Shown: positions 110 to 64,000 of the stretch, piece after piece
Numbering within the stretch: the first letter of the stretch is position 1
Layout: every line of letters begins with the position of its first letter
Translations under genes and position numbers: made by a program
The notes under the pieces: model-generated
What the model saw: the letters and a program-made list of their open reading frames with translations, nothing else
Told to the model about the DNA's origin: nothing
The model's database searches: none
Source of the DNA: a virus
Direction: 5' to 3' (one strand)
IMG/VR virus record: IMGVR_UViG_3300046694_000315
Location: 1 to 64,000 of that record
Length of the DNA stretch: 64,000 nucleotides

Positions 110-973
110 TTACAGGCCCTGAAACAGGTCCCCCGCACTGATGAAGAGGGGGACCTCCTTTCCGCACGAGTCGTGCGTGAACTTGACATCATTGTACTGA
201 GGGCCCGGCTGCTTTTCCTCAATGGCATCGAGGATGCGCTTGCGGTCGAGAAGGCCCAGAGCACGGGCGAAGTCGGGATTTCCCGTGACGGCGTTTTCAC
301 TGCCATCGGCCTCGACTACGGAAATGAGGCAGCGGGAAATCAGGAGCGTGTTCTGCTCGGATTCCGTGGCGCGGTCGACGACGGCGAGGACGGCGTCCTG
401 GTCGGCGCCGATGGGAAGCCGGACGTAGGCCTTTCGACCCCTGCGGAGTTCGACTTCGAAGACACGGTCGGCGGGGTCGGCCAATCGCCGTACGGGGATC
501 TCGTCGAGGGTGACGGACAGCCGGAACTCCTCGCCGCAGTGCGGGCAGGAGTAGCGGTCCCAGACGATCTCGTCGCCGTAGGTGGCTCGCCGGATCTCCA
601 GCAGGAGCGTGTCGCGGTCGCCGAGCAGGAGATTGCTGAGCAGGGCGGGGCTGGCCTTCTGGTCTCCCACGGAGACGGTGCCGCTGGCGAGGAGGGTGGA
701 GATGAACTTGCCGATACCGCCGTTGCGGGCCTTGGTGATGGCCTCCTCGTCGCCACCGTTCAGTTCACGTACCTCGGCGTCGTAGCGGGCGTTGGCGAAG
801 TCGTTGCCCGAAACGAAACCGCCCGGCAGGCGGAACTGGCCACCTGCCGGGACTGCGATCTCGGGCTTGGCGACCTCGGCCCCCTGGGAGAGCAATGCAG
901 CGATGGCAGCATTTGCCTGACCAGGGTTGGAGAGAGGGTTGGAGAACCCCTCGGTATGAAGGTCGTTTGCCAC
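110..973 (-). CDS. gp26-like baseplate/tail assembly protein
   Basis: A 287-residue protein starting at GTG with AGGAG upstream. A zinc-knuckle-like SCPHCGEEF sits near residue 143 and a second Cys (DSCGKE) near the C-terminus, as in the T4 gp26-type baseplate assembly family. It is the gene after tail tube and sheath, where tail assembly chaperones usually lie. Residues 5-7 are Leu-His-Thr encoded CTT CAT ACC, one copy of the dispersed motif. The end of the gene overlaps an open +1 frame. Role in tail assembly is inferred from the Cys pattern and position. Confidence 0.6.
   Translation of the reverse strand: MANDLHTEGFSNPLSNPGQANAAIAALLSQGAEVAKPEIAVPAGGQFRLPGGFVSGNDFANARYDAEVRELNGGDEEAITKARNGGIGKFISTLLASGTVSVGDQKASPALLSNLLLGDRDTLLLEIRRATYGDEIVWDRYSCPHCGEEFRLSVTLDEIPVRRLADPADRVFEVELRRGRKAYVRLPIGADQDAVLAVVDRATESEQNTLLISRCLISVVEADGSENAVTGNPDFARALGLLDRKRILDAIEEKQPGPQYNDVKFTHDSCGKEVPLFISAGDLFQGL
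953..961 (-). repeat. Dispersed CTTCATA motif copy
   Basis: CTT CAT ACC, Leu-His-Thr, N-terminus of the gp26-like protein. Confidence 0.8.
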
Positions 974-1009
974 TGGTTTTGCTCCTAGTCGAGTCGGTCG
1001 ATTCCGCTA

Positions 1010-1561
1010 TTAGAAACTAACGGAAGACGAGCCGACACTGTTAGCCAACTTGAACTCGAAACCCTCGTGGGCGAGGGTCATCTGCTGGACGATGATCGCG
1101 TTGGCGCCAGCGTCCAGGTCCGAGAAGGCGACCGCCGTGGGCCACGCGTTGTAGACGCGGAATGCGGCCTTGGCGGGAGTGGTGCCGGAAGTGACCGGGT
1201 GGTCGAGCACCTTGATGTCGACCATGTGCCGGAATTCCGCACCGGCCTTTCCGTTTCCGGTGCCCTGGATGACGGTGAACAACTGCCGCATCCAGTCCAT
1301 CATCTGGGAGTCGCCGACAGCGAGTCCCTTGGAAAGGGTGATGGGGGCGAAGTCGCTCTGCCCCGGCATCTTCTGGGTCGTAGTGTTCATTCCGCCCTCA
1401 CGGTACGGAATCACCTCGGTCGTGACGTTCAGACCCGAGACGGACATGAATCCCATTCGGGCGAAACCCTTGATGCCCGGGTGCTGGATCTGGACCTGGA
1501 ACTTGAAATTCCGCAAGGGATCGGAAGCGATATGTCCGACGGTGGACGTAGTCGTAGCCAT
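1010..1561 (-). CDS. Tail tube protein (gp19-like)
   Basis: A 183-residue protein with the pattern of contractile-phage tail tube monomers: DPLRNFKFQVQI near the N-terminus, then GFMSVSGL and the YREGGMNTTTQKMPG loop, and a C-terminal EGFEFKLANS. It would polymerise as the inner tube of the tail. It follows the sheath gene by 14 nt, the standard sheath-tube order. Confidence 0.9.
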   Translation of the reverse strand: MATTTSTVGHIASDPLRNFKFQVQIQHPGIKGFARMGFMSVSGLNVTTEVIPYREGGMNTTTQKMPGQSDFAPITLSKGLAVGDSQMMDWMRQLFTVIQGTGNGKAGAEFRHMVDIKVLDHPVTSGTTPAKAAFRVYNAWPTAVAFSDLDAGANAIIVQQMTLAHEGFEFKLANSVGSSSVSF

Positions 1562-1575
1562 CAGTGGGTTACCTC

Positions 1576-3890: not shown

Positions 3891-4409
3891 TCAGGACTTC
3901 TGGGACCAGCGCGAGAACTGAGCATCGTTGACCAGCTCGTCCGGTTTCATCTGGACGCATTCCAGGCCGACGATGATGTCCCGGTTCTGGATCTGCCCGA
4001 GGATCGAAATCGACGTGACGCGAAATACCGAGTCGTCGTAGACGATCCGGTCGGTCAGGTACTTCTGGTGGTCGATGTCCTGGTCGGTGAACCCCATCTT
4101 CCGCAGTGCGTCGAAGGACGCGGTGACGGAGAGGTTGTCCACCGTGTACAGGCCCTGGGTCGTGTCGTGGGCCGGGCCCTGGTTGTGGACCACGTGCAGG
4201 GCGGGGATCCGGTAGGGGCCGACGAAGATCTTGCCCTGGCCGGTGCCCTCGTCGTAGAGGTCGTCGCCGTCGGGGTCGGTGTGGGAGAAGCGGTAGTACT
4301 CCACCCGCTCCCCGATCTCCGTCTGGCGCCCGCGCAGGGTCGCCATGATGTCCGTGGTCTCGTAGTTGGCGTTGAAGCGGCCGTGCGTCTTCCAGTCGAG
4401 GCGTCCCAT
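3891..4409 (-). CDS. Head-tail connector-region protein
   Basis: A 172-residue protein starting MGRLDWKTHGRF. Its ATG overlaps the TGA of the preceding gene as TGATG, which decides this start over longer upstream alternatives. No family recognised. The position between connector-type genes and the tail suggests a neck or head-closure role. Confidence 0.6.
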   Translation of the reverse strand: MGRLDWKTHGRFNANYETTDIMATLRGRQTEIGERVEYYRFSHTDPDGDDLYDEGTGQGKIFVGPYRIPALHVVHNQGPAHDTTQGLYTVDNLSVTASFDALRKMGFTDQDIDHQKYLTDRIVYDDSVFRVTSISILGQIQNRDIIVGLECVQMKPDELVNDAQFSRWSQKS

Positions 4410-5224
4410 CAGTAGCCCCAGGATCCGAAGACGCTGGAGGGGATGCCAGACTCGTCGTCGTTCTGGTGGCCGGGGCCGATGGGAGGCAGGATGCGCTGCG
4501 GCAGGGAGTGGTCGTCGTACTCGCGCTCGCGGAAGAGCGGCACGAGGCGGCCGGTCGTGCGGGAGACGCGGCGCAGGTTGGTGACCTCGATCGAGTACAG
4601 GCCGACGCCCAACTTCTCGCACAGGGTCTGGTACCGCTCGGTGAGCATGCCGATCTGCGTCTGGATCTGGGCGAAGCGCTGGCCTCGGTCGACGGAGGTG
4701 CCGTCCGAGGTCTGGACGTTGATGTCGGTGGCCGCGTCGGTGGACAGCGCCCACATGGCCTCGGTGCACGCGAGGAGCACCACGAGGGCGTCCTCCTCGG
4801 CCGGAAGGTTGTCGACTCCCACCGGGGCCTGGTCGTACTTGATGAAGCCGTTGTCGTCCTTGTACCGGGTGGAGATGGTCCGGCCCCGGGTGTGCTGGGC
4901 GACGGCGTCGTTGAGGTAGATGTCCAGTTCGTCGTCGGAGAACAGGCCGTAGGAGGATCCCGACACCAGCAGCAGCGCGTCGAGCGCGAGGGCCTGGGTC
5001 AGGTCGAGGATGCCATTGAGTTCGTCGAGGACGTAGTCGGCGGGGGTGCTCAGCGCGGTCTGCTGGCCCCCCGAGATATGAAGCACTTCGAGGCCGGTCA
5101 CGTTGTTCGCGCTCAGTTCGTACTGTGCGACGTCCCCTGTGCCCCGGATGGTGTCGCGGAACGGCTGGAGCCGGTCGCCCAGCTCGCTGCGTACCCGCGT
5201 GCGCAGTTCTTCGAGAGTTGCCAT
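4409..5224 (-). CDS. Putative head-tail adaptor/connector protein
   Basis: A 271-residue protein beginning MATLEELRTRVRSELGD, rich in predicted helices, with a central DALVVLLACTEAMWAL helix, features often seen in phage head-tail adaptors. It is translationally coupled to the next gene (TGATG). Leu-His-Ile near residue 48 is encoded CTT CAT ATC, a copy of the dispersed motif. The role is inferred from position and helix content. Confidence 0.5.
   Translation of the reverse strand: MATLEELRTRVRSELGDRLQPFRDTIRGTGDVAQYELSANNVTGLEVLHISGGQQTALSTPADYVLDELNGILDLTQALALDALLLVSGSSYGLFSDDELDIYLNDAVAQHTRGRTISTRYKDDNGFIKYDQAPVGVDNLPAEEDALVVLLACTEAMWALSTDAATDINVQTSDGTSVDRGQRFAQIQTQIGMLTERYQTLCEKLGVGLYSIEVTNLRRVSRTTGRLVPLFREREYDDHSLPQRILPPIGPGHQNDDESGIPSSVFGSWGY
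5075..5083 (-). repeat. Dispersed CTTCATA motif copy
   Basis: CTT CAT ATC, Leu-His-Ile, connector-type protein. Confidence 0.75.
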
Positions 5225-7518: not shown

Positions 7519-7541
7519 GTACTCGACCGAATTACGAGTAC
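7519..7541 (-). terminator. Small hairpin between scaffold and capsid genes
   Basis: GTACTCG / CGAGTAC stem over the scaffold stop codon. Could modulate capsid gene expression. Confidence 0.4.
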
Positions 7542-8380
7542 AGTCCACGCTGGTTCTGGGCTGCCTGACCGACGCCCAACTGGCCCCGAATCTTGGCGTA
7601 CTCCGACATAGGCATGTTCTGAAGGTCAGAAAGGGAGTACGACTTGTGCCCCGGATCAGTGTCCATAGGTCCGGTGGTGGAATAGCCGGTGGGGCTCACA
7701 CCACGCATGGAGGCTCGCTGCTGAATTGCTGCCTGCTGGACCGACTCCAGGATAGCCTGGGTCTTGGCCTTGACGGTATTGAGCGAGTTCTCCACCTCCT
7801 CCGGCGTATTACCGCCGACGAAGTCGAGAAGTTCCGGAGCGATATTCTCGCTCTCCTCGCCGACCCGTCGCTGGATGTAGGACTGGAGGCTGTTGAACTC
7901 CTGCTCCTTCTGGAACAGAAGTCGCTCCTTCTCGAACTGCTGGAGACGCTGGTTCCACTCCTGCTCCTTGACGGCGAGCAGTTCCTTGGCCGACATGTCT
8001 TCCTCGGCCTTGGCCTTGGCGGCCTCCTGGGCCTGGCGCTGACGCTCGGACTCCTGAGCCTGCGCGGCCTCACGGGCCTTGCGCTGCTCTTCGATCTCGG
8101 CGAGGAAGGTCTTGTTCTGCTCCTCCACGCTCTGGAGGCGCTTGTACAACTTGTCCTTCTCCTCCTGCCGCGCCTTCTGGATGTCCTCGACGGTGAAGCG
8201 AGGCTCAGCGGGCGGGGTGGCAGGCGGCTCAACGACAGCGGCCGGGACGACGATGACGGGGTCGCCACCTTCACCGGGCTGCGGAGCCCCACCTGCGATG
8301 GGGAAGATCGGACGGCCGTCCTTGCGGTGGCCAAGTACGGTGCTGGCGGGCACCGAAATGCCCTGGGTATGAAGCGACAT
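7532..8380 (-). CDS. Capsid scaffold protein
   Basis: A 282-residue protein with a Pro-rich N-terminal third, a long charged Glu/Lys/Gln/Ala coiled coil at about residues 65-160, and a Gln/Gly/Ser-rich tail. This shape and its place between portal and major capsid genes fit a head scaffold. Residues 3-5 are Leu-His-Thr encoded CTT CAT ACC, a copy of the dispersed motif. Confidence 0.75.
   Translation of the reverse strand: MSLHTQGISVPASTVLGHRKDGRPIFPIAGGAPQPGEGGDPVIVVPAAVVEPPATPPAEPRFTVEDIQKARQEEKDKLYKRLQSVEEQNKTFLAEIEEQRKAREAAQAQESERQRQAQEAAKAKAEEDMSAKELLAVKEQEWNQRLQQFEKERLLFQKEQEFNSLQSYIQRRVGEESENIAPELLDFVGGNTPEEVENSLNTVKAKTQAILESVQQAAIQQRASMRGVSPTGYSTTGPMDTDPGHKSYSLSDLQNMPMSEYAKIRGQLGVGQAAQNQRGLYS
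8366..8374 (-). repeat. Dispersed CTTCATA motif copy
   Basis: CTT CAT ACC, Leu-His-Thr, residues 3-5 of the scaffold. Confidence 0.8.
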
Positions 8381-16812: not shown

Positions 16813-16959
16813 ATGACGATGACAGAGATCAGCCCGGCACCGCTTCATACTTCCGCCCCGACAGCAGAGGAGGCGTGGCTGGCCGCATGGACGGCCCGAG
16901 CGCCCGTCCTGGAGCCCGAGAAGGCCGACGAGGTCCTGGAGTTGATGGGCCTGCTCTAG
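16813..16959 (+). CDS. Tiny WxAxW protein divergent from tyrosine integrase
   Basis: A 48-residue protein with AWLAAWTARAPVLEPEKADE. The W-hydrophobic-A-x-W-xxx-AP-x-L-xx-E pattern is shared with the tiny gene at 18698, which is divergent from the other integrase. No ribosome binding site; probably leaderless. It has a plus-strand copy of the dispersed motif (CTT CAT ACT, Leu-His-Thr at residues 11-13). A role in integrase control is inferred only from position. Confidence 0.65.
   Translation: MTMTEISPAPLHTSAPTAEEAWLAAWTARAPVLEPEKADEVLELMGLL
16842..16850 (+). repeat. Dispersed CTTCATA motif copy, plus strand
   Basis: CTT CAT ACT, Leu-His-Thr, in the tiny gene at 16813; the only copy in a plus-strand gene and again in sense orientation. 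Confidence 0.8.
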
Positions 16960-19228: not shown

Positions 19229-19514
19229 CGAGGTCCTCATCGAATCGGTGGGCGTTGTCGCGGATATCGTCGGTGGAGAGCGCGTTGCCGTATCCCTGGA
19301 TGGCGGTGTACAGGGCGTCGCTCTCATTCCGGTATGTGTTGCGCCACCGGCCGAGGACGATCCCCTTTCCGGCCCACACCTTGATGATGAGCGACTTCGA
19401 GCGCCGGTAGGGCGGCTCGATTTCGTCAGTGGGCGCGGTATGAAGGAACGGCGCCCCAGGCTTGAGGTTGAGTGTGTGGGTGAAGAAAGGCCCCACCCCA
19501 TGAGTGTTAGGCAT
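19212..19514 (-). CDS. Hypothetical protein with a dispersed-motif copy
   Basis: A 100-residue protein with SLIIKVWAGKGIVLGRW in the middle and an acidic C-terminus. Residues 24-26 are Leu-His-Thr encoded CTT CAT ACC; here the motif lies in the loop of a GGGCGC/GCGCCC stem. No family recognised. Confidence 0.55.
   Translation of the reverse strand: MPNTHGVGPFFTHTLNLKPGAPFLHTAPTDEIEPPYRRSKSLIIKVWAGKGIVLGRWRNTYRNESDALYTAIQGYGNALSTDDIRDNAHRFDEDLDELVI
19437..19445 (-). repeat. Dispersed CTTCATA motif copy
   Basis: CTT CAT ACC, Leu-His-Thr, gene at 19212. Confidence 0.8.
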
Positions 19515-21444: not shown

Positions 21445-21690
21445 TTAGTTGATATGAAGTCCGGCCTTCTTAAGCTGATTCTTGGCCTTGACCCAGCCTG
21501 GCGTGGCTCCGGTCAGCCCGCTGATGCAGACCGTGTTTCCGTCCGGGTCGACCCACTTGATGTGGTTCCCTCCAGTTACAGACACCTCCCATCCGTCCTT
21601 GCGGGCCTTCTTGGCCACCTTCTCGATCTCCTTGTCGGCTCCGAGTCGGTCAGAGCCGGTCTTGGCTACTGGCGCTCCCCTGCGGGCCAT
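21445..21690 (-). CDS. HicA-like small protein
   Basis: An 81-residue basic protein. The stretch VTGGNHIKWVDPDGNTVCIS resembles the HicA/dsRBD-like fold, in which a His in a Gly-x-His segment is catalytic. No HicB-like partner is adjacent. The last residues, Leu-His-Ile-Asn, include a motif copy (CTT CAT ATC) just before tandem stops TAATAA. Could be an RNA-binding protein rather than a toxin. Confidence 0.5.
   Translation of the reverse strand: MARRGAPVAKTGSDRLGADKEIEKVAKKARKDGWEVSVTGGNHIKWVDPDGNTVCISGLTGATPGWVKAKNQLKKAGLHIN
21451..21459 (-). repeat. Dispersed CTTCATA motif copy
   Basis: CTT CAT ATC, Leu-His-Ile, near the stop of the HicA-like gene. Confidence 0.75.
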
Positions 21691-25477: not shown

Positions 25478-25989
25478 AGCCACTCTCCGGTGAGGGCTCC
25501 GTGGACGTCGGCCTCACGGTAGGTGGCGGGCTTGAGGACCTTGCCGTCCTCGCGCCGGATGACCTTGCCGTCGACCACCTTGCTCATGTTCGAGCGATGC
25601 ACTTCGGCGAAGACGGCCTCCAGGGGGATCTCCAGGAGGTCGGCGGTGCCGTAGACGACGTACAGCACGTCGGCGAGTTCCTTGGCCAGGGCCTCGTACC
25701 AGCGCGGTCCCTCGGGTGCCGACTCTCCCCGGCCGGGCAGGAAGTGGCTCGTGGGCGACGACTCGATGAAGTCGTCCATGATCTGGGCCTTGCGGTAGTT
25801 CAGCAGGGCCTCCAGGGCCTCCTGGACCTCCTCGGCGATGAGGGTGGACCGCAGGGCGATCAGGTCGTCTCGTCCGGCCTCGTCGCGCTCGATGAAGGGC
25901 TTCTCCCCCACGGCGCGGTGCCACTGTCCCAGCGCCCGCATGGGGCGGTGGGTGGAGGTATGAAGCAGGGTCTTCGGGATGCTGCTCAA
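25474..25989 (-). CDS. MazG-like nucleotide pyrophosphohydrolase
   Basis: A 171-residue all-helical protein with AEEVQEALEALLNYRKAQIM and LAKELADVLYVVYGTADLL, the acidic EExxE...ExxD metal-binding pattern of MazG/PRA-PH family enzymes that hydrolyse nucleoside triphosphates. TTG at 25989 with AGGAG upstream is chosen. The N-terminal extension has a motif copy, Leu-His-Thr (CTT CAT ACC) at residues 9-11. Confidence 0.75.
   Translation of the reverse strand: MSSIPKTLLHTSTHRPMRALGQWHRAVGEKPFIERDEAGRDDLIALRSTLIAEEVQEALEALLNYRKAQIMDDFIESSPTSHFLPGRGESAPEGPRWYEALAKELADVLYVVYGTADLLEIPLEAVFAEVHRSNMSKVVDGKVIRREDGKVLKPATYREADVHGALTGEWL
25957..25965 (-). repeat. Dispersed CTTCATA motif copy
   Basis: CTT CAT ACC, Leu-His-Thr, MazG-like gene. 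Confidence 0.8.
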
Positions 25990-26908: not shown

Positions 26909-27212
26909 CGGCAGCCCCTCCGGGCAAGATATGAAGCGCGCCGGGCTGGTCGAGGTCCATGAAGGGGTCGGCCAACTGGACGGCGACCTGGGTGAAGGCG
27001 TTGCCGATGATCTCCTGGATGCCTCCGAGGCCCTCCAACTTGTCGGCGAGTTCGAGGAGGGTGCCGACGACGTCCTTGATCGCGACGAAGTACTCGCCGT
27101 CGTCGTCCTGGATGTAGCGGTAGGACGCCTCGTGCTCGGACGCGGTCTCGGTGAGGACGCTCAAGGGGTTCTCCAAGGTCTTGGTGGTGTCAGAGCCAGA
27201 CGCGGTACTCAC
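26895..27212 (-). CDS. Hypothetical protein with a dispersed-motif copy
   Basis: A 105-residue acidic protein with YRYIQDDDGEYFVAIKDVVG. Near the C-terminus Leu-His-Ile is encoded CTT CAT ATC. It overlaps the SbcD-like gene by 23 nt at its start. No family recognised. Confidence 0.5.
   Translation of the reverse strand: MSTASGSDTTKTLENPLSVLTETASEHEASYRYIQDDDGEYFVAIKDVVGTLLELADKLEGLGGIQEIIGNAFTQVAVQLADPFMDLDQPGALHILPGGAAGANA
26928..26936 (-). repeat. Dispersed CTTCATA motif copy
   Basis: CTT CAT ATC, Leu-His-Ile, gene at 26895. Confidence 0.75.
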
Positions 27213-28425
27213 TGGTGACTCGTCCCTTCTCGGGGTTGATGAAGTGCAGGCGCTGGGAGGGGTCTCCCGTGGCCGCGACGAACTCGTGGGCGTAGATGTT
27301 GTCGCTCTCGGGGCTGCCGGTCATGAAGACGGAGCCGCCGTTGGCCAACTGGAGTTGCATCGACTGGTGGTAGTGGCCGATGTAGAGGTCGCGGAAGGCC
27401 GGGAGGACGCCGGAGGCCCACTGGTTGGCCTTGCGGAGGATGCCGTAGGCGGGGATGTTGCCGCCGAAGGACTTGATCTCGTCGCCGTGGATGGCCATGG
27501 CCTTGTAGTTGCCGATGGTGAAGTTCTGGTACCAGCCGCCGTCCGTCTGGAAGCGGGTCAGCCGGTCCTCGTCGGCGAGGCGCTGGCGCACGATGTTGTA
27601 GACCATGCGGTCGACGTTGTCGGAGGCCTTGATGCCGTCGCCCTTGCGGCCGAGACGTCCGTGGTTGCCGTACTCGGCGACGACCTCGACCGTCTCGTAG
27701 GTATGAAGCGCCTGCTTGATCGTCCAGATCATCAGGTCGGCGACGTCGAACATCTGCTCGTAGAGGGTGCCGTCGAGTTCCCACACCTGCCCGGGGAAGA
27801 TCGAGACGCCTTCGACCATGTCTCCGGTGAACAGCAGGACGCCGTGCTTGACCGGGTGGTCGGCGCGCTGGATGTCGGTGATCTCGTTGGCCTTCTCGAC
27901 GTAGCGCATGATGCGGGTCCGCATGATGGTGCGGTCGTACGTCTCGGTCTTCTTGCCGCCCTGCCAGTCCGTGAGGTGCCACAGGGCGACCTCGGACGGC
28001 TTGGTACGGCGGTCACGCGCTGGAGGCTCGACGGGGGTCACTCCGACGTACTGCGCGGCGTCGCTGGCGGCACGGTAGACGGCCTCGATGTACTCGTCGC
28101 CGCGCGCCTTCGCCTTCTTGAACTGCTGGAACAGTCGGCGGTTGTCAGCCTCCAGGGCCTGTATCCGCTCGATCTGCTCCTCGTTCTCGGCCACTGCCTC
28201 GGCCGTGCCCTCCTCGGGCAGGGTATGAAGCCCCTTCTCCTTGCCCGGCTCGACCAGGATGTTGCGCTTGTAGCCGTTGGCCTTGCGCCAGCGCCGGACG
28301 GCGGTCTCGGAGGTCTCCACACCGTTGAAGTTGAGGTCGTCGGAGGCGGCCTGGTGGCCGACGTTGGGGTCCATCAGGATCTCGCGGACCCAGTCGACCT
28401 CGATGTACTCAGCGAGCGTGCTCAA
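27190..28425 (-). CDS. SbcD/Mre11-like metallophosphoesterase
   Basis: A 411-residue protein. After a 130-residue N-terminal part with a coiled coil (EEQIERIQALEADNRRLFQQ), the calcineurin-like domain shows HLTDWQGG, LLFTGDMVEG, EYGNHGR, AIHGDEI and IGHYHQS, the metal-binding motif series of phosphoesterases including DNA-repair nucleases. It may be a nuclease in replication or recombination. It carries two dispersed-motif copies: Leu-His-Thr near residue 66 and again near 237, inside the catalytic domain between GDMVEG and GNHGR. Confidence 0.82.
   Translation of the reverse strand: MSTLAEYIEVDWVREILMDPNVGHQAASDDLNFNGVETSETAVRRWRKANGYKRNILVEPGKEKGLHTLPEEGTAEAVAENEEQIERIQALEADNRRLFQQFKKAKARGDEYIEAVYRAASDAAQYVGVTPVEPPARDRRTKPSEVALWHLTDWQGGKKTETYDRTIMRTRIMRYVEKANEITDIQRADHPVKHGVLLFTGDMVEGVSIFPGQVWELDGTLYEQMFDVADLMIWTIKQALHTYETVEVVAEYGNHGRLGRKGDGIKASDNVDRMVYNIVRQRLADEDRLTRFQTDGGWYQNFTIGNYKAMAIHGDEIKSFGGNIPAYGILRKANQWASGVLPAFRDLYIGHYHQSMQLQLANGGSVFMTGSPESDNIYAHEFVAATGDPSQRLHFINPEKGRVTSEYRVWL
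27700..27708 (-). repeat. Dispersed CTTCATA motif copy
   Basis: CTT CAT ACC, Leu-His-Thr, catalytic domain of the SbcD-like protein. Confidence 0.8.
28222..28230 (-). repeat. Dispersed CTTCATA motif copy
   Basis: CTT CAT ACC, Leu-His-Thr, second copy in the SbcD-like gene. Confidence 0.8.
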
Positions 28426-33699: not shown

Positions 33700-34799
33700 C
33701 AGGCAGCCGCCTCCGGGACCGACGCGAACGGGACCTCGTAGGCGGGCTTGACCCGCTTCCACACCCGCGAGGTGATGTCCTGGCCGCCGTACAGGCCGAA
33801 CAGGATGTCCCTGTAGGGGCTCTCGCAGGCCAGGAGGGCGAACTCCTTGCGGCGCTTCTGCGCGTCGTCCTCCGGCCTCACCAGGCGGCGCAGGATCCAG
33901 TCGAACTCCTCGCGTGCCTCCACCAGGGTGTCGGTGTAGGCCGCCTGCAAGGCGCTGACCTTCGCGCGGACCCAGTCGTAGAACTCGTCCGGGACGCTGT
34001 CGATGATCGCCTCGATCCCGTCGCCCTCGACCAGCGCCTCCCACAGGGTGAGCGTCGAGGTGTTCGTCAGGATGCGGTGCAGCCGCACGTACTCGTCGAA
34101 CTTGAACTTCACCCGCAGGTCGTGGCCGGGGAAGTGGACGACGAAGCCCTCCTGGTTCTCCTCCTGCGGCGCCGCCAGCACCTCGGAGAGGGACTCGAAG
34201 CCGACCGGCTGGTTGACCGGCCCCGGCCAGTCGTAGGGCCCCCACGGCAGCGAGCGACCGGTCTGGGTGTCGACCACCGCGAGCAGGACCAGGTCGTCCA
34301 GGCCCTTGTAGTCGACGACGATCCGGTTGGACGGGAAGACGATCTCGAAGAGGTACGTCAGACCCAGGATCGGCTCGAACGTCGGGTAGCGCGTCTCCAG
34401 GATCTTGTTCGCGTGCTGCGCCTGCGGGCTGGTGAAGGAGCCCCGCGTGGCGATGCGGAACTCCCCGGTATGAAGCAGGTAGCCGACGCCCAAGGAGCCG
34501 TCCCACTTCACGTACGTCTTGACCGGCTCGTTGATCAGTCGCGCCTGCTGGTCGGCGGGGATCTGCGACCAGTTGAAGAACTTCTCGAACGGCCGGGCCA
34601 CGACCTTCTCGGTGGTCGTGTCGATGATCAGACCCCGGGTCTTCTTGGTGACCTCGTTCCACTCGTTGTCGAACTGCGCCTTGTTCGTGTAGTTGAAGAT
34701 GGCCCGGCTGCCGTCGGGGTGGGTCTGGTGGCGGACGTAGCCCTTGGTGATGTTGTCGAGCAGGGCCTTCTCCGGAAGGACGTCGTACAGGTGCACCAT
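33699..34799 (-). CDS. RNA ligase (T4 Rnl1-like)
   Basis: A 366-residue nucleotidyltransferase. Motif I is KWDGSLG, preceded by FEKFFNW; motif III-like segment is LFEIVFPSNRIVV; motif IV is EGFVVHFPG; motif V is RVKFKFDEYVRLH. It joins RNA ends using ATP, paired with the nearby kinase-phosphatase to restore cut tRNAs. Motif copy: Leu-His-Thr in YLLHTGEFRIATRGSF, within a conserved beta hairpin just after motif I. Confidence 0.88.
   Translation of the reverse strand: MVHLYDVLPEKALLDNITKGYVRHQTHPDGSRAIFNYTNKAQFDNEWNEVTKKTRGLIIDTTTEKVVARPFEKFFNWSQIPADQQARLINEPVKTYVKWDGSLGVGYLLHTGEFRIATRGSFTSPQAQHANKILETRYPTFEPILGLTYLFEIVFPSNRIVVDYKGLDDLVLLAVVDTQTGRSLPWGPYDWPGPVNQPVGFESLSEVLAAPQEENQEGFVVHFPGHDLRVKFKFDEYVRLHRILTNTSTLTLWEALVEGDGIEAIIDSVPDEFYDWVRAKVSALQAAYTDTLVEAREEFDWILRRLVRPEDDAQKRRKEFALLACESPYRDILFGLYGGQDITSRVWKRVKPAYEVPFASVPEAAA
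34467..34475 (-). repeat. Dispersed CTTCATA motif copy
   Basis: CTT CAT ACC, Leu-His-Thr, RNA ligase. Confidence 0.8.
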
Positions 34800-36306: not shown

Positions 36307-36824
36307 CAGAACCAGTAGTCCTCAGACGGGTCGTCGCGGCCGTCGGTCTCCATGGCCTCGGCGGACTCCTCATACGTCGCCAGCGCCTCCTCCAGCGCCC
36401 TTCCCCACGTCTGTCCCTGGTCCTGCTCGACCTGAGCCACGGTGAGCAAGGCGAGCGTCTCGTTGTCGACCCTGAGATGCCCCTCCTCGACCAGGCTCTG
36501 GACCTCCGTGATGGTGCTGTCCGTGGCCGCCAGGTCCTCGTACGTCACGCCCTTGTAGGACAGCACGTAGCCGACCATGCAGGACGGCGCCTTGTCGGCC
36601 GGGCTGAAGTAGACGCACGGATTGGCGCCCGTCTCCGGGTCCAGGGGAGGCGCGTAGACGTAATCCTCCCCGCGCTCCTTCACTGCGCGGCCCAGCAGTT
36701 CCTTCGCCTCGTCCAGGGAGATCTCGACGGTGGCGGGCTTGGGCTTGGGGGTCTCGGCCTCCGGGGTATGAAGCGCGTCGTCGAGGGAGGGAACGGAGTC
36801 GATGATCTCGGTGAAGTTGAGCAT
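36306..36824 (-). CDS. Hypothetical protein with a dispersed-motif copy
   Basis: A 172-residue acidic protein. Residues 17-19 are Leu-His-Thr (CTT CAT ACC) in DDALHTPEAETPKPKP, a linker-like N-terminal part. The middle has ANPCVYFSPADKAPSCMVGY with two Cys. Translationally coupled to the RlaP-like gene. No family recognised. Confidence 0.55.
   Translation of the reverse strand: MLNFTEIIDSVPSLDDALHTPEAETPKPKPATVEISLDEAKELLGRAVKERGEDYVYAPPLDPETGANPCVYFSPADKAPSCMVGYVLSYKGVTYEDLAATDSTITEVQSLVEEGHLRVDNETLALLTVAQVEQDQGQTWGRALEEALATYEESAEAMETDGRDDPSEDYWF
36765..36773 (-). repeat. Dispersed CTTCATA motif copy
   Basis: CTT CAT ACC, Leu-His-Thr, gene at 36306. Confidence 0.8.
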
Positions 36825-37888: not shown

Positions 37889-37919
37889 GGACAGGTGCCC
37901 AGTGGGATGCACCCCGCTG
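37889..37919. terminator. Hairpin before the DUF2637-like gene
   Basis: GGTGCCCAG / CTGGGCACC arms near 37892 and 37914 between the gene ending at 37937 and the start at 37863. Probable terminator. Confidence 0.55.
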
Positions 37920-37936
37920 GGCACCCGCATACCCGA

Positions 37937-38206
37937 CTAGGTATGAAGCCGTTCACGCTCGTCGAGATAGTCCGAGACGCCGTTGTCCCAGAACGGACCG
38001 AACACGTACTGCGCCGTCGCGTCGTACAGCGCGCTGCTGGCGACCGCCCCGCCATGAGGCAGCAGCTCCTCCGCCTGGACCGAGTTCTGCCGACCGGTGA
38101 GCAACGCCACCAACGCGGCCTCGTCAGCCGACAGCCGGAGCGTCACCGCCTCGGGCGACCCGTCGTCTCGGAACTCGATGCTCTTGACCAAGGCCATCTC
38201 GGCCAT
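37937..38206 (-). CDS. Hypothetical protein ending in Leu-His-Thr
   Basis: An 89-residue protein (LVKSIEFRDDGSPEAVTLRL at the start). Its last three codons are CTT CAT ACC followed by TAG, so the dispersed motif forms the extreme C-terminus. No family recognised. Confidence 0.5.
   Translation of the reverse strand: MAEMALVKSIEFRDDGSPEAVTLRLSADEAALVALLTGRQNSVQAEELLPHGGAVASSALYDATAQYVFGPFWDNGVSDYLDERERLHT
37940..37948 (-). repeat. Dispersed CTTCATA motif copy
   Basis: CTT CAT ACC then stop TAG, gene at 37937. Confidence 0.8.
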
Positions 38207-46879: not shown

Positions 46880-46960
46880 GCCCTTTCGGCACAACGATTT
46901 ACAAGACGTTATGAAGCTGTGACCGGCGGCCGGGGCAGGCCGTGTTCCCATGGATGCCGA

Positions 46961-56165: not shown

Positions 56166-56564
56166 TTACTTGCTAGATGTTGGCGTTTCCGTGACCGTTT
56201 CCTTCGGGCACGGAATCTTGACCTGCACGGAATGCGTGTGCGCCAGCCCGTATACGGGGGCGTACGGCGTGGCCGAGGACGTAGGTGCGGGCACTGCGGG
56301 CGAAGGCCCGACCACGAGCGATACCTTGCACGTGCCCGGGGATTCCGGCTTCGTTGCTTCCGGTGTCGGCTCGGGCAGATACCTGGTCACCGTTGACACG
56401 GGCTGCGGCGAGGAATCCCCTTCGTATTCCGGAGAATCCGACTGGGAATTCTCGGTATGAAGCCCGGGGAAATCCGACTGGGCAACCGCTGAGATCCCGA
56501 ATGCCGGTACGGCGAGAATTCCGATTGCCGCAAGGGCGACTTTGATGCGCTGGATTCCGTTCAT
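56166..56564 (-). CDS. Secreted Pro/Ser/Thr-rich protein
   Basis: A 132-residue protein with a signal peptide (RIKVALAAIGILAVPAFGIS) and a mature part rich in Pro, Ser, Thr. Motif copy: Leu-His-Thr in GLHTENSQ just after the predicted cleavage site. No enzymatic domain. Possibly a surface or lysis-related protein. Confidence 0.6.
   Translation of the reverse strand: MNGIQRIKVALAAIGILAVPAFGISAVAQSDFPGLHTENSQSDSPEYEGDSSPQPVSTVTRYLPEPTPEATKPESPGTCKVSLVVGPSPAVPAPTSSATPYAPVYGLAHTHSVQVKIPCPKETVTETPTSSK
56454..56462 (-). repeat. Dispersed CTTCATA motif copy
   Basis: CTT CAT ACC, Leu-His-Thr, secreted protein at 56166. Confidence 0.8.
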
Positions 56565-56722: not shown

Positions 56723-58261
56723 CTAACCTTCCTGGTTGATGTAAGTTGGTACGTCGACGATTTCGGCGTCGATGAAACCGGTAGAGGCTTCGATCATCCG
56801 GTCCGCCGAGAGAGGCCTGTCGAGCGCTGTCATCTGTTCCCCGGCGTCCCGGCCGAAGATACGGCTGATCATACCGGCCCCGCCGCCATTCCCCTTAGCC
56901 TCCAGTTTCACGGAGAAGGAGTCCTGCTCCAGTTCCGTCTTCACCTTCACGAGTTTCTGGAGCCGGTCGATCTCGCCGGAGAGGTTCGGATCCGCGTAGC
57001 CACCGGTCATATCCTCGACCATCTTCATGAAGAGGACCCGCTGCGCCTGCATCTCGATGAGCGAGTTCTGGAGCGACTGCATCTGCTGCTTGCTCTTCAC
57101 TTCGACCGGGATGTCGTACGCGCAGTTGGCATTCTGGTCGAAGGCCGGGCACTTCGAGGACAGGAAGCAGGACGAGCAGGCGCGCATGGACTGGCTGCGC
57201 ACGGTCAGGAGGGGGATGTCCCGCTCCTTGTTCACGCCGTCCTCGGGGTCGGTGTAGACCTCCTTCTCCTGCACCAGGCCGATGACCGGCAAGTTGGTAC
57301 GCGGGCGGTCTCTGCGGACGGCCGGAGTTGTCACCGGGTTGAGCGTTTTTCCGTCCTCCGTACCAACTTCGGTGCCCTGCATTTGAGAGAAACTCGAAAG
57401 TACCCCTCCGGCAGAAGTAGTAACTGCTTGGGCTTCCTGCGGCCGGTGCTGGTCGATCGAGGCCGCCAACTGCTGCCACGACCAGATGGTGAACCGCAGG
57501 ACCTCGTCGTTCTCTCCGGCCTCGATACGGTCGGCGTCGAAGCCCGCTTCGGTGAACAGAGTGCGGTGCCTTTTCCGCGCCTGGTCCTTGTACTTCTTCG
57601 GGTAGCGCTTCAATTCCCGGCCGGTCCACACAATGGTGTCACCGTACTGGGAAGGGGAAAGCCAGGACGTCGAGGCGACGCTGTCCCAGTTCACGGCAGC
57701 CATTTCCGCAGGCTTAGTCATGGCCACTCCGTGGAGTAGCGTGCCGTATTTCCGGGTGATCTCGTTGAGAACCGGGGTGAGATTCCGGCCGTCGAGATCC
57801 GTCTGCGTCACACCGACCCGCTTATACCTCTGGGCGAGTTTATCGAGTTCGTCGACTCCCCATTCCGAATGCCATATCGGAAGGAACTTGTCTTCCGGCA
57901 GGTCCTCGTAGAAGTCCTCTCGCCGGGCCTCGATCCATTCCCGTCCGAGAACGACAGCGTCGAACTCGGACACCATATGAAGGGAATCGATATTCTGCTG
58001 GACGAACGCTTCGTAATGCGCGGCGATGTCCTTCAGTTCGCCGATCGAGTACTTGTCGTCGTCGGCCTTGTTGACCGTGTAGGCGCCGGAGTCCAGGAAC
58101 ACCTTCTGGTTTTCGAGGTAGTTGTCCTCGATCAGCCAGGGGCGGGTGAACTTGGTCCGGCGCCGCAGGCCCATGTACGAGAGGGAGACGGTTTCGACGC
58201 CTTCCTCGGCCAGCATCTTGCGCCAGCCGGGAATCTCGGATCCGCCGAGGAAGAGGTGCAC
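56723..58261 (-). CDS. TG transglycosylase-like (TGT/DpdA-type) barrel protein, tentative
   Basis: A 512-residue protein. The first 250 residues read like a TIM barrel of the tRNA-guanine transglycosylase/DpdA kind: MHLFLGGSEIPGW, KVFLDSGAYTVNK (candidate catalytic Asp), VSEFDAVVLGREW and LLHGVAMTKP. The second half has a linker, then CSSCFLSSKCPAFDQNANCA, four Cys fit for zinc or an iron-sulfur cluster, and coiled coil. DpdA enzymes put 7-deazaguanines into DNA. Leu-His-Met near residue 94 is encoded CTT CAT ATG, a motif variant. Confidence 0.45.
   Translation of the reverse strand: MHLFLGGSEIPGWRKMLAEEGVETVSLSYMGLRRRTKFTRPWLIEDNYLENQKVFLDSGAYTVNKADDDKYSIGELKDIAAHYEAFVQQNIDSLHMVSEFDAVVLGREWIEARREDFYEDLPEDKFLPIWHSEWGVDELDKLAQRYKRVGVTQTDLDGRNLTPVLNEITRKYGTLLHGVAMTKPAEMAAVNWDSVASTSWLSPSQYGDTIVWTGRELKRYPKKYKDQARKRHRTLFTEAGFDADRIEAGENDEVLRFTIWSWQQLAASIDQHRPQEAQAVTTSAGGVLSSFSQMQGTEVGTEDGKTLNPVTTPAVRRDRPRTNLPVIGLVQEKEVYTDPEDGVNKERDIPLLTVRSQSMRACSSCFLSSKCPAFDQNANCAYDIPVEVKSKQQMQSLQNSLIEMQAQRVLFMKMVEDMTGGYADPNLSGEIDRLQKLVKVKTELEQDSFSVKLEAKGNGGGAGMISRIFGRDAGEQMTALDRPLSADRMIEASTGFIDAEIVDVPTYINQEG
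57974..57982 (-). repeat. Dispersed CTTCATA motif copy
   Basis: CTT CAT ATG, Leu-His-Met, TGT-like protein. Confidence 0.7.
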
Positions 58262-58287: not shown

Positions 58288-58971
58288 TTACTTCGGGGGC
58301 TGGACGGCGCTCTTGGGGAAGAGGCCGGGCTGGGTGACGCGGGGCTTCTTGGCGGCCGGAGCGCCTGCGGCGGGCTTCTGCCGGGGGCCCGGCGACGCGG
58401 CCATCCCGAACTGCTGCGGGGAGCGGACCTGGCTCGGGCCGAACAGTCCGGCCTGGACCACGCGCTGCGGCTTGGCGGCCGGTGGCGGCGTCTGCGGGGC
58501 CGACTGGACGGGGGTGCCAGAGGTGCTGGCGTGGGTGCCGAACGCGGAGTGGAAGTCGTCCCAGGCCCCGCCGGAGGGCTTGCTCTGCGCCTGGATGCCG
58601 TTCATCCGGGCGTTGAAGGTATGAAGGAGGTCGGAGGCCGCGCCGGAGTGCTGGGCATGCCAGGCGTCGAGGCTGGAGGAGTGGTCCTCGCGCACCCGCT
58701 GGATGTCGGCCTGGTTCTTGATGCCGTTGGCGATTCCCTCGCGGCTCATCACGCGAGCGTGCATGCTGCTGTCCTGGGCCGGGGCGCTCTGCTGGCCCTG
58801 TCCCTTGACGCGGATCTTGATGCGGGAGTTGGCGGGCTGCTGGCCGTTCTTGGCGTTCTCCAGGTCGCTGACGCGCTGCTCGACGCTGCGGCGCGAGCCG
58901 GGGAACTGGAGGGGCTGGAGGTAGCGGTCGCGGATCTGGGTCGCGATGGAATGGAAGACGGAGCCACTCAT
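58288..58971 (-). CDS. Hypothetical low-complexity protein
   Basis: A 227-residue protein with a helical first half and a C-terminal half rich in Pro, Ala, Gln, Lys with repeated QAGLFG/QPGLFP segments, probably disordered binding motifs. Motif copy: Leu-His-Thr in DLLHTFNARM. ATG overlaps the upstream stop (ATGA). Confidence 0.55.
   Translation of the reverse strand: MSGSVFHSIATQIRDRYLQPLQFPGSRRSVEQRVSDLENAKNGQQPANSRIKIRVKGQGQQSAPAQDSSMHARVMSREGIANGIKNQADIQRVREDHSSSLDAWHAQHSGAASDLLHTFNARMNGIQAQSKPSGGAWDDFHSAFGTHASTSGTPVQSAPQTPPPAAKPQRVVQAGLFGPSQVRSPQQFGMAASPGPRQKPAAGAPAAKKPRVTQPGLFPKSAVQPPK
58618..58626 (-). repeat. Dispersed CTTCATA motif copy
   Basis: CTT CAT ACC, Leu-His-Thr, gene at 58288. 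Confidence 0.8.
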
Positions 58972-59758: not shown

Positions 59759-59764
59759 CGTCGA

Positions 59765-60625
59765 TCACCCGTGCCGGTGTTCGATCAGGCCCTCACGGTG
59801 GGCCTTCTCATGGGCGCGGACGGCCTTGCGCTGGTCGTGCTCCAGGAAGCGGGGACTCATCCCGTGGGCCTGGATCAGGTGCTCGTGCACGGCGTCGAGG
59901 TTGGTGTGGGTCTTGATCTTGGGTTCGACGGGGGCGGTCTTCTCGAACTGGTCGAGGTTGAGGACGTGGGCCCCGACATGGGTGTCTCCCCGGCCGCGCG
60001 CTTCGGCGAGCCGGTGGTGCGCGTCGGCGACGTACGGTGTGCCGCCCTGGATGACCACCTTCACGTGCGGGTGGTCGGGGGCCAGCGGGCCGGTGATGTA
60101 GGAGTGTGAGCCGGTCTCGTACGAGGTCTGGCCGGTGTGCAGGACGGCGCTGGTGCTGATGCTCTGGAACTTGGCGTGCTTGTTCCAGAAGGCCTCGTTG
60201 CCGTGGCTCATCTGCGGGCCGTGCTTCTCGTACCACTTGTCGTCGATCTTGGTGTCGACGACGTTGCCGTGCCCGTCGAGGTGCCCGAACTGCTGCGGGG
60301 AGTGCGGCGGGCCCATGACCATCTGCCCCTCGGACTGGGGGTAGTTGGTGCGCTCCTCGTCATGGATGAGCGTCTCGTCACGGGCGGCGCCGAGCGAGGT
60401 GACCTTGGTGAACATCCCGCCGCTGTGAGGCGTGGGATGCCCGATATGAAGTGCGCCGGGCTTGGCCTGGAGATGCAGCGGCGTGTCCTTGGTCAGGTGG
60501 TAGGCCGCGCGGAGCGCGGTCTGCTTCTGGCCTTGGGCGGAGACCCTGCTGCCCAGGGGGACCGGGAGGGCGGTCTGCTCGAACTGTGGACCGGCGGTGT
60601 CCGGCTTACTGCGGGAAGGTGCCAT
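59765..60625 (-). CDS. ParB-like nuclease-fold protein
   Basis: A 286-residue protein. The stretch VVIQGGTPYVADAHHRLAEA resembles the ParB/Srx Gly-rich and DGxHR region. Motif copy: Leu-His-Ile (CTT CAT ATC) near residue 60, while another Leu-His-Thr near residue 165 uses CTG CAC ACC. ATG at 60625 overlaps the upstream stop; GTG at 60628 is possible. Could act on DNA or nucleotides; uncertain. Confidence 0.55.
   Translation of the reverse strand: MAPSRSKPDTAGPQFEQTALPVPLGSRVSAQGQKQTALRAAYHLTKDTPLHLQAKPGALHIGHPTPHSGGMFTKVTSLGAARDETLIHDEERTNYPQSEGQMVMGPPHSPQQFGHLDGHGNVVDTKIDDKWYEKHGPQMSHGNEAFWNKHAKFQSISTSAVLHTGQTSYETGSHSYITGPLAPDHPHVKVVIQGGTPYVADAHHRLAEARGRGDTHVGAHVLNLDQFEKTAPVEPKIKTHTNLDAVHEHLIQAHGMSPRFLEHDQRKAVRAHEKAHREGLIEHRHG
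60443..60451 (-). repeat. Dispersed CTTCATA motif copy
   Basis: CTT CAT ATC, Leu-His-Ile, ParB-like gene. Confidence 0.75.
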
Positions 60626-61678: not shown

Positions 61679-61694
61679 GTAGTTGCTATTTCTC

Positions 61695-62084
61695 TCAGAG
61701 TTTGAGAGAAGCGCGGAGTTGGGCCTCCTGGGCCTGCCGCTGCATCGCCTGTCCGACCATCATCATCTGCTGCTGGGTGCGCTGGGCCGTCTCCATGACG
61801 GTGAGGTCCTTCTGGACCACGGCGACGGCGCCGTAGATGTCGTCGGGGGTGGCTCCTCGCCGGGGGACGAACTTCTGGGTCAGGTCGCTGGTGGCGACGA
61901 CTGCGCCGTCCAGGCCGACCGCGACGAGGAACGCCGTGGTGACCGGGGTGCCGATCTCGTCTTCGGCGGGCGGGTGCTCGTCCGCCATCTTGGCCAGGGC
62001 CTCACGCTGCTCGGGCGTGAGGTCGTCAGTATGAAGCGCGCTGCTGTCGCTGCTGGGGGTCTGGCCGAGGATCGGGATGCTCAT
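61695..62084 (-). CDS. Hypothetical protein with a dispersed-motif copy
   Basis: A 129-residue protein; the centre (TTAFLVAVGLDGAVVATSDL) is beta-rich, the C-terminus is a Gln/Met/Ala coiled coil. Residues 17-19 are Leu-His-Thr (CTT CAT ACT). No family recognised. Confidence 0.55.
   Translation of the reverse strand: MSIPILGQTPSSDSSALHTDDLTPEQREALAKMADEHPPAEDEIGTPVTTAFLVAVGLDGAVVATSDLTQKFVPRRGATPDDIYGAVAVVQKDLTVMETAQRTQQQMMMVGQAMQRQAQEAQLRASLKL
62028..62036 (-). repeat. Dispersed CTTCATA motif copy
   Basis: CTT CAT ACT, Leu-His-Thr, gene at 61695. Confidence 0.8.
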
Positions 62085-62112
62085 GTGTGCTCCAGGTATG
62101 TGTCGGGTGGGG

Positions 62113-62598: not shown

Positions 62599-62612
62599 GG
62601 TGTCCCTTCGAA

Positions 62613-63218
62613 TCAGTACCAGTTAGTGGCCTGGGAGTGTGCCCAGGCGGTGCAGGGTGTCCCGTATACCGCCTCGATGTATCCGAGTCCCCATCGTATC
62701 TGGGTTATTGCATTGGTTTGCCAATCCGAACCGGCGGAAGCCATCTTCGAGGCCGGTAGTGCCTGGGGTATTCCGTAGGCGCCGGAGGAGGGGTTGGTGG
62801 CGGTGACGCGCCAGTTGGACTCCTTCTCCCACAGCAGGTCCAGGCAGGCGAACTGGGTGGCTCCGACCTTGGCGAGGGCGTAGGCCTTCGGGGAGGTCGT
62901 GGCGACGACGGTGTGCGTCGGCGTTGGGGACGCGCGGGGCGTCTTCGTCGGTTTTGGCTGGTGGGAGTGGGTGGCGCTGGCGGTCGGCTTGGGGGTCTTG
63001 GTGACCTTGGGGGTGGGCGCCGGAGCCGCCGAGGTATGAAGCGAGGGACGCGTCAGGGACCGGTTGGCGGTGTCCGGAGCTGCTCGGGTGACGGTCGGCG
63101 CTGCGGCGATGCCGCTGTAGTCGACGGGCTGGCCCTGGCCGGTGATGGAGATGGCCGATACGACGGAAGCCGTAACGAGGATGGCGGACGCTGCTGCTGC
63201 TGCGACGCGGTAGCGCAT
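62613..63218 (-). CDS. Secreted lytic transglycosylase-like protein
   Basis: A 201-residue protein: signal peptide (residues 1-25), a long Thr/Pro/Lys/Ser linker, and a C-terminal SLT/Rpf-like domain with LDLLWEKESNWRVTATNPSS (catalytic Glu) and GAYGIPQALP. It should cleave peptidoglycan glycan strands. Motif copy: Leu-His-Thr in the linker. ATG at 63218 chosen for its GAGG site. Confidence 0.85.
   Translation of the reverse strand: MRYRVAAAAASAILVTASVVSAISITGQGQPVDYSGIAAAPTVTRAAPDTANRSLTRPSLHTSAAPAPTPKVTKTPKPTASATHSHQPKPTKTPRASPTPTHTVVATTSPKAYALAKVGATQFACLDLLWEKESNWRVTATNPSSGAYGIPQALPASKMASAGSDWQTNAITQIRWGLGYIEAVYGTPCTAWAHSQATNWY
63033..63041 (-). repeat. Dispersed CTTCATA motif copy
   Basis: CTT CAT ACC, Leu-His-Thr, linker of the transglycosylase. 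Confidence 0.8.
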
Positions 63219-63310
63219 GCGGTGCCTCACTTTCGGGGACGTTCTTGCTCTTAGAACGTAACATCCCCACTACGGCATTGGAAGCCGTAATGGGGATGAC
63301 GTTGTTCAGA

Positions 63311-64000
63311 TCACGCCTTGACGGTGAACAGACCGCTGGCCTTGGCCAACTTCGTCAGCGATGCCAGGCCCGGAGCACCCTTGGCGTCGTCGCCCGTGTA
63401 GCCGCTCTTCCGGCGGAAGAGGTCGTAGCCGTCCTGCGTCTTGGTGCCCCAGGAGCCGTCCACCCACCGCGCGTCGAGGTAGCCCAGCGCCGACAGCGCC
63501 TTCTCGACGAGCAGCACGTCCGCCTTGTGGGTCGTGTGGCCGGTGGCCGCCGGGAGGTCCGCCTTGCGGGCCGCGACGACGTTGGAGACGTCCACGACCG
63601 GCTTCGCAGCGGGCTTCGGAGCCGGAGCCGGGGCGGCCGGAGCCGCCGGGGTATGAAGCGAAGGGTTCTGCGACTTCCACGCCGGGTCGGCCGACTCGAT
63701 GCCGTCCGGGTATTCCGGGTAGCCATATCCGTAGACATGCGCGTCGGTCCGGACGTGGGTCTTGGCGTAAACGCCATCCCCCTCTGCCGAACCGTTTATG
63801 TTCGTATTGCCTTCTACGCTGAAGACGTGAGTCGCGTCGAATCCGATAACGACCCCGGTGTGCTCACCTCCGCCCGGCCCGTAGAAGATTTGACTGCCGA
63901 TCGCGGGGTACGCACTGAATCGCTTCCGGGCCTTGTACCAGGAAACGCCGGTCGCGCACGAGGCGGTAACCGGGTAGGAGCCCTTCGGCAGGCCCGCCGT
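63311..64000 (-). CDS. CHAP-type endolysin, 5' end cut by window
   Basis: The last 229 residues of a protein running off the right edge. Its first part has ASCATGVSWYKARKRF, GSQIFYGPGGGEHTGVVIGF and THVFSVEGNTN, like a CHAP/NlpC-type peptidase with the catalytic Cys and His. A Pro/Ala linker holds a motif copy (Leu-His-Thr, CTT CAT ACC). The C-terminus (LVEKALSALGYLDARWVDGS, then WGTKTQDGY) is a peptidoglycan-binding domain. It is the likely endolysin. Confidence 0.8.
   Translation of the reverse strand, partial: TAGLPKGSYPVTASCATGVSWYKARKRFSAYPAIGSQIFYGPGGGEHTGVVIGFDATHVFSVEGNTNINGSAEGDGVYAKTHVRTDAHVYGYGYPEYPDGIESADPAWKSQNPSLHTPAAPAAPAPAPKPAAKPVVDVSNVVAARKADLPAATGHTTHKADVLLVEKALSALGYLDARWVDGSWGTKTQDGYDLFRRKSGYTGDDAKGAPGLASLTKLAKASGLFTVKA
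63650..63658 (-). repeat. Dispersed CTTCATA motif copy
   Basis: CTT CAT ACC, Leu-His-Thr, linker of the endolysin. Confidence 0.8.

Follow-up and report, generated by a model that had tools for sequence, protein, structure and literature searches.

The 64,000-nucleotide stretch analysed here (hereinafter the window; positions 1 to 64,000 of IMG/VR record IMGVR_UViG_3300046694_000315, a virus record of 106,046 bases) carries a codon word, CTT CAT followed by ACC, ATC, ACT or ATG, dispersed through the genes of a phage. Sequence comparison shows that the word is nucleotide-specific, sense-oriented, locked to the reading frame, kept by selection and trans-read, and that its type goes with the type of a phage gene encoding a HicA-like protein. 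That the word is frame-locked and trans-read, taken by itself, is almost certain. We further think it probable that CUU-CAU-A[CU][CU] (CUU-AAU-ACC in sister phages) is an mRNA word that is read in the frame of translation by a factor acting in trans and encoded by the phage, the likeliest candidate being the stand-alone HicA-like RNase. Relatives were collected through their ribonucleotide reductase (RNR) and terminase proteins, the phages compared are nearly all metagenomic, and gene coordinates throughout were computed by a home-made gene caller.

The heptamer CTTCATA occurs 22 times in the window, 21 times on the minus strand and once, at 16843, on the plus strand. As a preliminary description of the window had reported, 21 of these copies are intragenic, 14 are exact matches on the opposite strand (namely GGTATGAAG on the plus strand), and the third codon of the genic copies is always ACC, ATC, ACT or ATG. 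The whole record has 43 copies on its gene-rich minus strand and a single plus-strand copy, which sits in a plus-strand gene; for GCTTCATACC the counts are 21 (minus) and 0 (plus), and a reversed-pattern control gives 0 copies in the whole record. The 39 record copies within called genes are all in frame 0. Shuffling synonymous codons with the proteins kept yields a mean of 0.87 copies (maximum 5 in 400), which upholds and strengthens the excess over chance claimed in the preliminary description, and shuffling codon order within genes yields a mean of 0.67 (maximum 5). The CTT-CAT dicodon is found 41 times compared with 0.36 expected, and the next-ranked dicodons are far lower. The two codon shuffles and the codon-usage frame null described below rule out chance or codon bias as the cause. 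Regular spacing of the copies was also rejected, with a coefficient of variation of the gaps of 1.28 vs 0.96 for random placement, i.e., variation not below random. A search of open-access papers for such codon words found nothing.

The choice is made at the nucleotide level, as had been proposed. Specifically, CTT-CAT accounts for 41 of the 85 Leu-His pairs of the record, for which codon usage predicts 0.57, and the excess of Leu-His-Thr (34 observed vs 3.7) is confined to this spelling, other codon spellings showing no excess and almost no copies. Selection on the tripeptide Leu-His/Asn-Thr as a processing or sorting tag would be consistent with the reading always being Leu-[His/Asn]-[Thr/Ile/Met]; however, it is refuted by the codon identity, and the third codon is variable (ACC, ACT, ATC, ATG, ACG) and is free in the distant relative G065, so that such a tag is hardly credible.

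Among relatives, the word is found in two types, CTTCATACC (CAT type) or CTTAATACC (AAT type; Leu-Asn-Thr), and never both in number. In ten genomes, called genes contain 303 strict copies (193 CAT and 110 AAT), all in frame 0; no copy in frame 1, in frame 2 or antisense is present among them. The earlier observation that genic copies are always on the coding strand and in frame, including the copy in the plus-strand gene, therefore extends to all genic copies. The accompanying suggestion that rare codons partly explain the frame lock has the wrong sign, because the codon-usage null for CTTCATAYY places 8-11% of copies in frame 0 and 81-86% in frame 1, where 0 of 193 were observed. The frame lock of CTTAATACC is less informative, since the other frames give TAA or TTA-ATA. 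Copies between called genes behave in the same way: 27 of 27 listed cases have an upstream in-frame ATG or GTG with no intervening stop, compared with 6 of 27 when the same test is made in each other frame. Some of these copies make up nearly the whole of a tiny open reading frame (ORF) that overlaps the gene after it (MRLHTYGGPC, MRLHTRAVA and VRRLNT, each followed by a stop). The frame lock of the CAT word and the in-frame starts of the between-gene copies therefore place recognition at translation.

A DNA or replication-strand signal is rejected by the lone opposite-strand copy in G000, G003, G004, G006 and G005, which in each genome lies in a small opposite-strand gene, in frame 0 and near the start, and thus follows gene strand and frame. 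A translation-independent target at the RNA level, read by an RNA-binding protein or an antisense RNA and with the frame lock imposed by coding constraint alone, is improbable. It accords with the expected frame lock of the AAT type and with the one copy that lies within a covarying hairpin (CATACC-GGTATG, AATACC-GGTATT). It does not accord with the dominance of frame 1 expected for the CAT type, or with the opportunities for creating the word by synonymous change, which are similar across the three frames (36, 29 and 47; eight word-free relatives), or with the between-gene copies in tiny ORFs with starts. Moreover, the record holds no complementary RNA, with no CTTCATACC on the plus strand and no perfect complement outside the sites. 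A phage-encoded antisense RNA is therefore rejected; only one local hairpin bears GGTATG/GGTATT. Among the explanations put forward in the preliminary description, the target of a sequence-specific RNase is the best supported, with translation phase added to it, while a DNA signal and a selfish sequence have fallen away.

The comparison of CAT and AAT phages defines how the word changes. The CAT type has 24-39 strict copies in the larger records, whereas the AAT type is found in G005 and about 17 other records, in which CTTCATACC is absent. At about 25 aligned positions, CTT CAT A.. in CAT phages is CTT AAT A.. in G005; elsewhere, sites have been gained or lost. At the word site of the RNR alignment, unrelated codons (CTG CGC ACC) are seen in word-free relatives. 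The sites are substitutions in alignable proteins, consistent with the earlier remark that no insertion is apparent there, and a proliferating selfish insert or insertion element is rejected because the sites are in-place substitutions that are gained, lost and switched.

In the capsid and DnaB trees CAT and AAT genomes are intermingled, which shows that the two types of phage exchange genes. Genes most closely related to a gene in phages of the opposite type contain 23 own-type words and 0 other-type words, while their partners carry 20, several at the same codon. The exchanged genes hold only the word of the resident genome, and a trans-acting factor of the genome therefore dictates the word. 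Decoding by phage tRNAs, in which CAT or AAT would match a phage tRNA-His or tRNA-Asn and cause programmed pausing, was rejected and is very improbable. Although tRNA-His is present in G000, G003 and G004 and the AAT phages have tRNA-Asn but no tRNA-His, the CAT phages G006 and G025 likewise have tRNA-Asn and no tRNA-His, i.e., tRNA-His fails to track word type.

The gene of the HicA-like protein appears to be the sole gene that tracks both word presence and word type. In every record of the two-type clade that carries the gene, HicA type is the same as word type. Among 108 shared genes, none has a CAT-AAT identity gap as large as that of the HicA-like gene, 31.6 points, compared with a median of 2.1 and 18.8 for the next gene; the scan starts from G006, a CAT phage about equidistant from both types, and is not fully independent, because the gene had already been nominated from its divergence in G005. 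The AAT-type protein has a 14-residue insertion and an altered second half. The gene itself contains a word in all five main genomes compared. Its last codons are GGA CTT CAT ATC AAC TAA, which places the word at its own 3' end, and this terminal word is kept in all CAT phages and is CTT AAT ACC or CTT AAT CTC in AAT phages.

Outside the two-type clade, only the more distant G065 (E 4e-32) and G066 have a clear HicA homologue among the terminase relatives. In G065, CTT-CAT ranks first among the in-frame dicodons (11 vs 0.22 expected), and the third codon is free. Of 20 widely shared G065 genes, HicA alone is missing from every one of the 14 word-free records. G066 has three genes, HicA among them, that are shared with word-bearing phages and absent from word-free records, and the two gene sets overlap in HicA alone. 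G066 has 48 CTT-CTA dicodons vs 2.1 expected, mostly via synonymous choice. G065, with CTT-CAT alone, and perhaps G066, with CTT-CTA, suggest a family of systems with a common first codon, CTT. Relatives without a close HicA homologue have no such word: no comparable rare-codon word is present in G009, G011, G015, G052, G054, G055, G059, G063 or BRock, and neither CTTCATACC nor CTTAATACC is found as a word in the Streptomyces prophages L201-L205 or in more distant relatives.

A PDB sequence search with the HicA profile gave no meaningful match, and a fold comparison was therefore needed. The AlphaFold2 model of the HicA-like protein (mean predicted local distance difference test score 73) contains a helix at residues 20-31, strands at 35-39, 43-47 and 53-58, and a helix at 64-76, which is the alpha-beta-beta-beta-alpha fold of HicA, resembling a double-stranded-RNA-binding domain. 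In Foldseek the best match is 1whz (probability 0.98), followed among others by 6g26 (HicAB) and 4p78 (HicA3), with weak E-values (best 0.036). The conserved histidine at beta 2 is also present, as His43 of a GNH motif, invariant in 12 sequences. By tblastn, no HicA homologue was found in cultured phages and plasmids. Taken with the tracking of word type, these features make the HicA-like protein quite likely to be the reader of the word.

Several observations weigh against this assignment. The match to PF07927 (HicA_toxin) scores 23.7 bits, below the curated Pfam cutoff of 27, and only 4 of the 12 aligned members match the family at E<0.01. No HicB partner was recognised among the neighbours tested, of which 21954-23093 has no Pfam match and 21036-21320 was read by eye only. 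E. coli HicA has also been described as independent of translation. In G066 (L296-L300), CTA is favoured after codons ending in AT or TT (CTT, GAT, CAT, GTT, AAT), CTT-CTA being the strongest, so that CTT-CTA as a HicA-linked word is suggestive and confounded by a broader N[AT]T-CTA preference. G067 has a very remote HicA-like gene (42% over 50 residues) and no word, the word-free G054 has a marginal match to the HicA hidden Markov model (E 0.1), and G047, at 100% identity, represents a piece of the G065 phage, which makes the word-free set slightly less independent than 14. Finally, the terminase and HicA trees both split CAT from AAT, and the DnaC loader and gene 26714-26908 also show large CAT-AAT identity gaps; the split may be one historical event, in which lineage-linked genes stay confounded. 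These last points, together with the comparative nature of the HicA link, are what speaks for another trans-acting factor, of host or phage, that reads the word in frame while the HicA-like gene travels along by descent. We consider this unlikely, given that the HicA-like gene bears its own word in all five main genomes, that its identity gap far exceeds that of the next gene, and that no other gene in both G065 and G066 is common to word-bearing phages and absent from word-free ones.

Copies of the word are unevenly distributed. The replication block has 0.87 copies per kb and the nucleotide and RNA-repair blocks have 0.6, compared with 0.14-0.21 in the structural blocks and 0 across an 18-kb block of small variable genes. 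The first 20 codons are enriched 2.6-fold (90 vs 34). One copy is part of a conserved leader upstream of a predicted membrane-protein gene (37892-37948, minus strand). The leader consists of a short ORF ending in the word and a stop codon, a hairpin between word and anti-word, and a second GC-rich stem, and looks attenuator-type. In eight genomes the hairpin covaries with word type, with a C-G pair in the four CAT genomes and an A-U pair in the four AAT genomes (AATACC with GGTATT). This shows that RNA pairs with the word at this one hairpin, which perhaps hides the word when it is untranslated.

If the HicA-like protein is the reader, it would recognise CUU-[C/A]AU(-AYY) on mRNA under translation and cut at or near the word. 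Cutting would lower expression of the replication, nucleotide and RNA-repair genes, which hold most copies, and the terminal word in the HicA-like gene would limit synthesis of the protein itself. Two settings can be envisaged. During the lytic cycle, the cutting could switch off middle genes at a set time, in the way that T4 RegB acts on early genes. Alternatively, it could keep lytic genes silent in a prophage and on superinfection, in the manner of stoperators, which work at the DNA level as sites where a repressor stops transcription. The lytic setting is slightly ahead. The immunity setting would explain the word difference between sister phages, and this divergence, a tyrosine integrase and a serine recombinase favour it. 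More tentatively, and with somewhat less than even confidence, we propose an in-frame phage-wide code, in which a private codon word is read solely by the phage's own HicA-type RNase on translating ribosomes, acts at translation as stoperators do in control or immunity, and changes together with its reader.

Table 1. Copies of the word and associated features in the window (all coordinates are window positions).
Feature	Position	Strand	Context
Word CTT CAT ACC	953..961	-	Codon 5 of baseplate hub gene 110-973; switched to CTT AAT ACC in G005
Word CTT CAT ATC	5075..5083	-	Codon 48 of 4409-5224
Word CTT CAT ACC	8366..8374	-	Codon 3 of 7532-8380 (gene flanked by those for portal and major capsid); switched in G005
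Word CTT CAT ACT	16843..16851	+	Codon 11 of plus-strand gene 16813-16959; sole plus-strand copy
Word CTT CAT ACC	19437..19445	-	Codon 18 of 19212-19496
HicA-like protein, 81 residues, candidate word reader	21445..21690	-	PF07927 match below cutoff; HicA-like fold; type tracks word type
Word CTT CAT ATC	21451..21459	-	Codon 78 of 81 in HicA-like gene 21445-21690
Word CTT CAT ACC	25957..25965	-	Codon 9 of nucleotide pyrophosphohydrolase 25474-25989; switched in G005
Word CTT CAT ATC	26928..26936	-	Codon 93 of 26895-27212; switched in G005
Word CTT CAT ACC	27700..27708	-	Codon 240 of exonuclease 27190-28425
Word CTT CAT ACC	28222..28230	-	Codon 66 of exonuclease 27190-28425; switched in G005
Word CTT CAT ACC	33011..33019	-	Codon 129 of polynucleotide kinase 32477-33403; switched in G005
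Word CTT CAT ACC	34467..34475	-	Codon 109 of RNA ligase 33699-34799; switched in G005
Word CTT CAT ACC	36765..36773	-	Codon 18 of 36306-36824; switched in G005
RNA hairpin, CATACC of word paired with GGTATG, then second stem, before next gene start	37892..37945	-	Word-type covariation
Word CTT CAT ACC	37940..37948	-	Immediately 5' of stop codon of 37937-38206
CTTCATAAC	46908..46916	-	Outside genes; incomplete word, left out of set
Word CTT CAT ACC	56454..56462	-	Frame 0, codon 35 of ORF 56166-56564 (missed by gene caller); conserved in relatives
Word CTT CAT ATG	57974..57982	-	Codon 94 of queuine tRNA-ribosyltransferase-like 56723-58261; CTT AAT ATG in G005
Word CTT CAT ACC	58618..58626	-	Codon 116 of 58288-58971
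Word CTT CAT ATC	60443..60451	-	Codon 59 of 59765-60625; CTT AAT ATC in G005
Word CTT CAT ACT	62028..62036	-	Codon 17 of 61695-62084; switched in G005
Word CTT CAT ACC	63033..63041	-	Codon 60 of 62613-63218
Word CTT CAT ACC	63650..63658	-	Codon 174 of 63311-64177

The one non-coding CTTCATA of the window, CTTCATAAC, is conserved, being present with similar flanks in G004 (13753), and is possibly a promoter-linked element. The gene content of the phage comprises a contractile-tail set, baseplate proteins, RNR, UvsX, DNA polymerase, DnaB and RNA ligases. Its DNA polymerase is nearest to those of Streptomyces phages such as BRock (52%), and the host of this soil phage group is probably Streptomyces; 22 kb of the window, compared with cultured phages by megablast, gave no match. 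The tyrosine integrase and the large serine recombinase adjoin each other (15631-16707 and 17006-18550, both minus strand), and the serine recombinase has no homologue among the relatives first compared. An Rfam scan shows tRNAs and one riboswitch only, a c-di-AMP (cyclic di-AMP) riboswitch (RF00379, 68 bits; 29900-30033, minus strand) inside the phage tRNA cluster. The gene directly downstream (29402-29899, minus strand) encodes a small secreted-looking protein, a putative NlpC/P60-type cell-wall hydrolase; for a phage, control of a lysis or wall gene by a riboswitch would be unusual. A tRNA-His (gtg) is located at 28973-29058 (minus strand); its variable arm is long, and G-1 and C73 apparently pair (G-1:C73). 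This tRNA is present in G000, G003 and G004 and in none of the other word-bearing genomes scanned. The dicodons GAA CTC, GAA CTG, AAA CTC and CAG TTG are over-represented in most phages of the group, which looks like avoidance of the AGCT-containing junctions GAGCTC, GAGCTG and CAGCTG and possibly reflects restriction avoidance.

Although HicA RNases are widespread, neither their in vivo target nor their dependence on translation has been settled. In these phages, a HicA target seems to have been laid down dozens of times in evolution and changed once, as an in-frame recognition word of 6-9 nt. If this is true, the word represents a new layer of phage gene control, genome-wide, set by codons and frame, with a specificity switch like that of heteroimmunity. 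Frame-locked rare codon pairs would then provide a simple computational signature for finding similar systems.

Polar DNA words such as Chi, KOPS (FtsK-orienting polar sequences) and uptake sequences resemble the word in being over-represented, short and oriented, but they follow the replication strand or DNA processing, whereas the word follows gene and reading frame. The stoperators of cluster A mycobacteriophages (L5, Bxb1; PMC9283540, PMC6550527) likewise have many short asymmetric copies across the genome, oriented with transcription and differing in specificity between relatives. The word is also oriented with transcription and divergent between relatives. Unlike stoperators, which are mostly non-coding and frame-independent, its sites are intragenic and in frame with no non-coding copies: every genic copy (303 of 303) is in frame 0, and the others lie in small ORFs.

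The HicA-like protein shares with the HicA toxins of HicAB systems its fold, its size and a catalytic-type histidine where beta 2 begins. Cleavage by E. coli HicA strongly favours the position just ahead of a codon's first base, a codon-phase bias that led the authors to question whether HicA is independent of translation (PMC8546651) and that is in line with the reading proposed here. By contrast, the phage gene has no recognised HicB partner and its word is long, private and located in the carrier's own genes; a HicA consensus of this length is not known, and a review reports none for E. coli HicA (PMC7180214). A functional precedent is T4 RegB, a phage RNase that acts on the phage's mRNAs and also cuts its own transcript (PMC3014915). 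In the role suggested here, the HicA-like protein would be like RegB in being an RNase that is encoded by a phage and recognises a specific sequence scattered across the mRNAs of that phage, in cutting its own transcript and possibly in acting with the ribosome, and a polynucleotide kinase is found in the same phage in both cases. RegB differs in having a RelE-like fold instead of a HicA-like one, and its target, GGAG, is mostly in Shine-Dalgarno regions and not frame-locked, in contrast to CTT-[CA]AT-AYY inside genes. A concerted genome-wide change of target is not described for RegB in PMC3014915, whereas here a rare codon word has been switched between sister phages.

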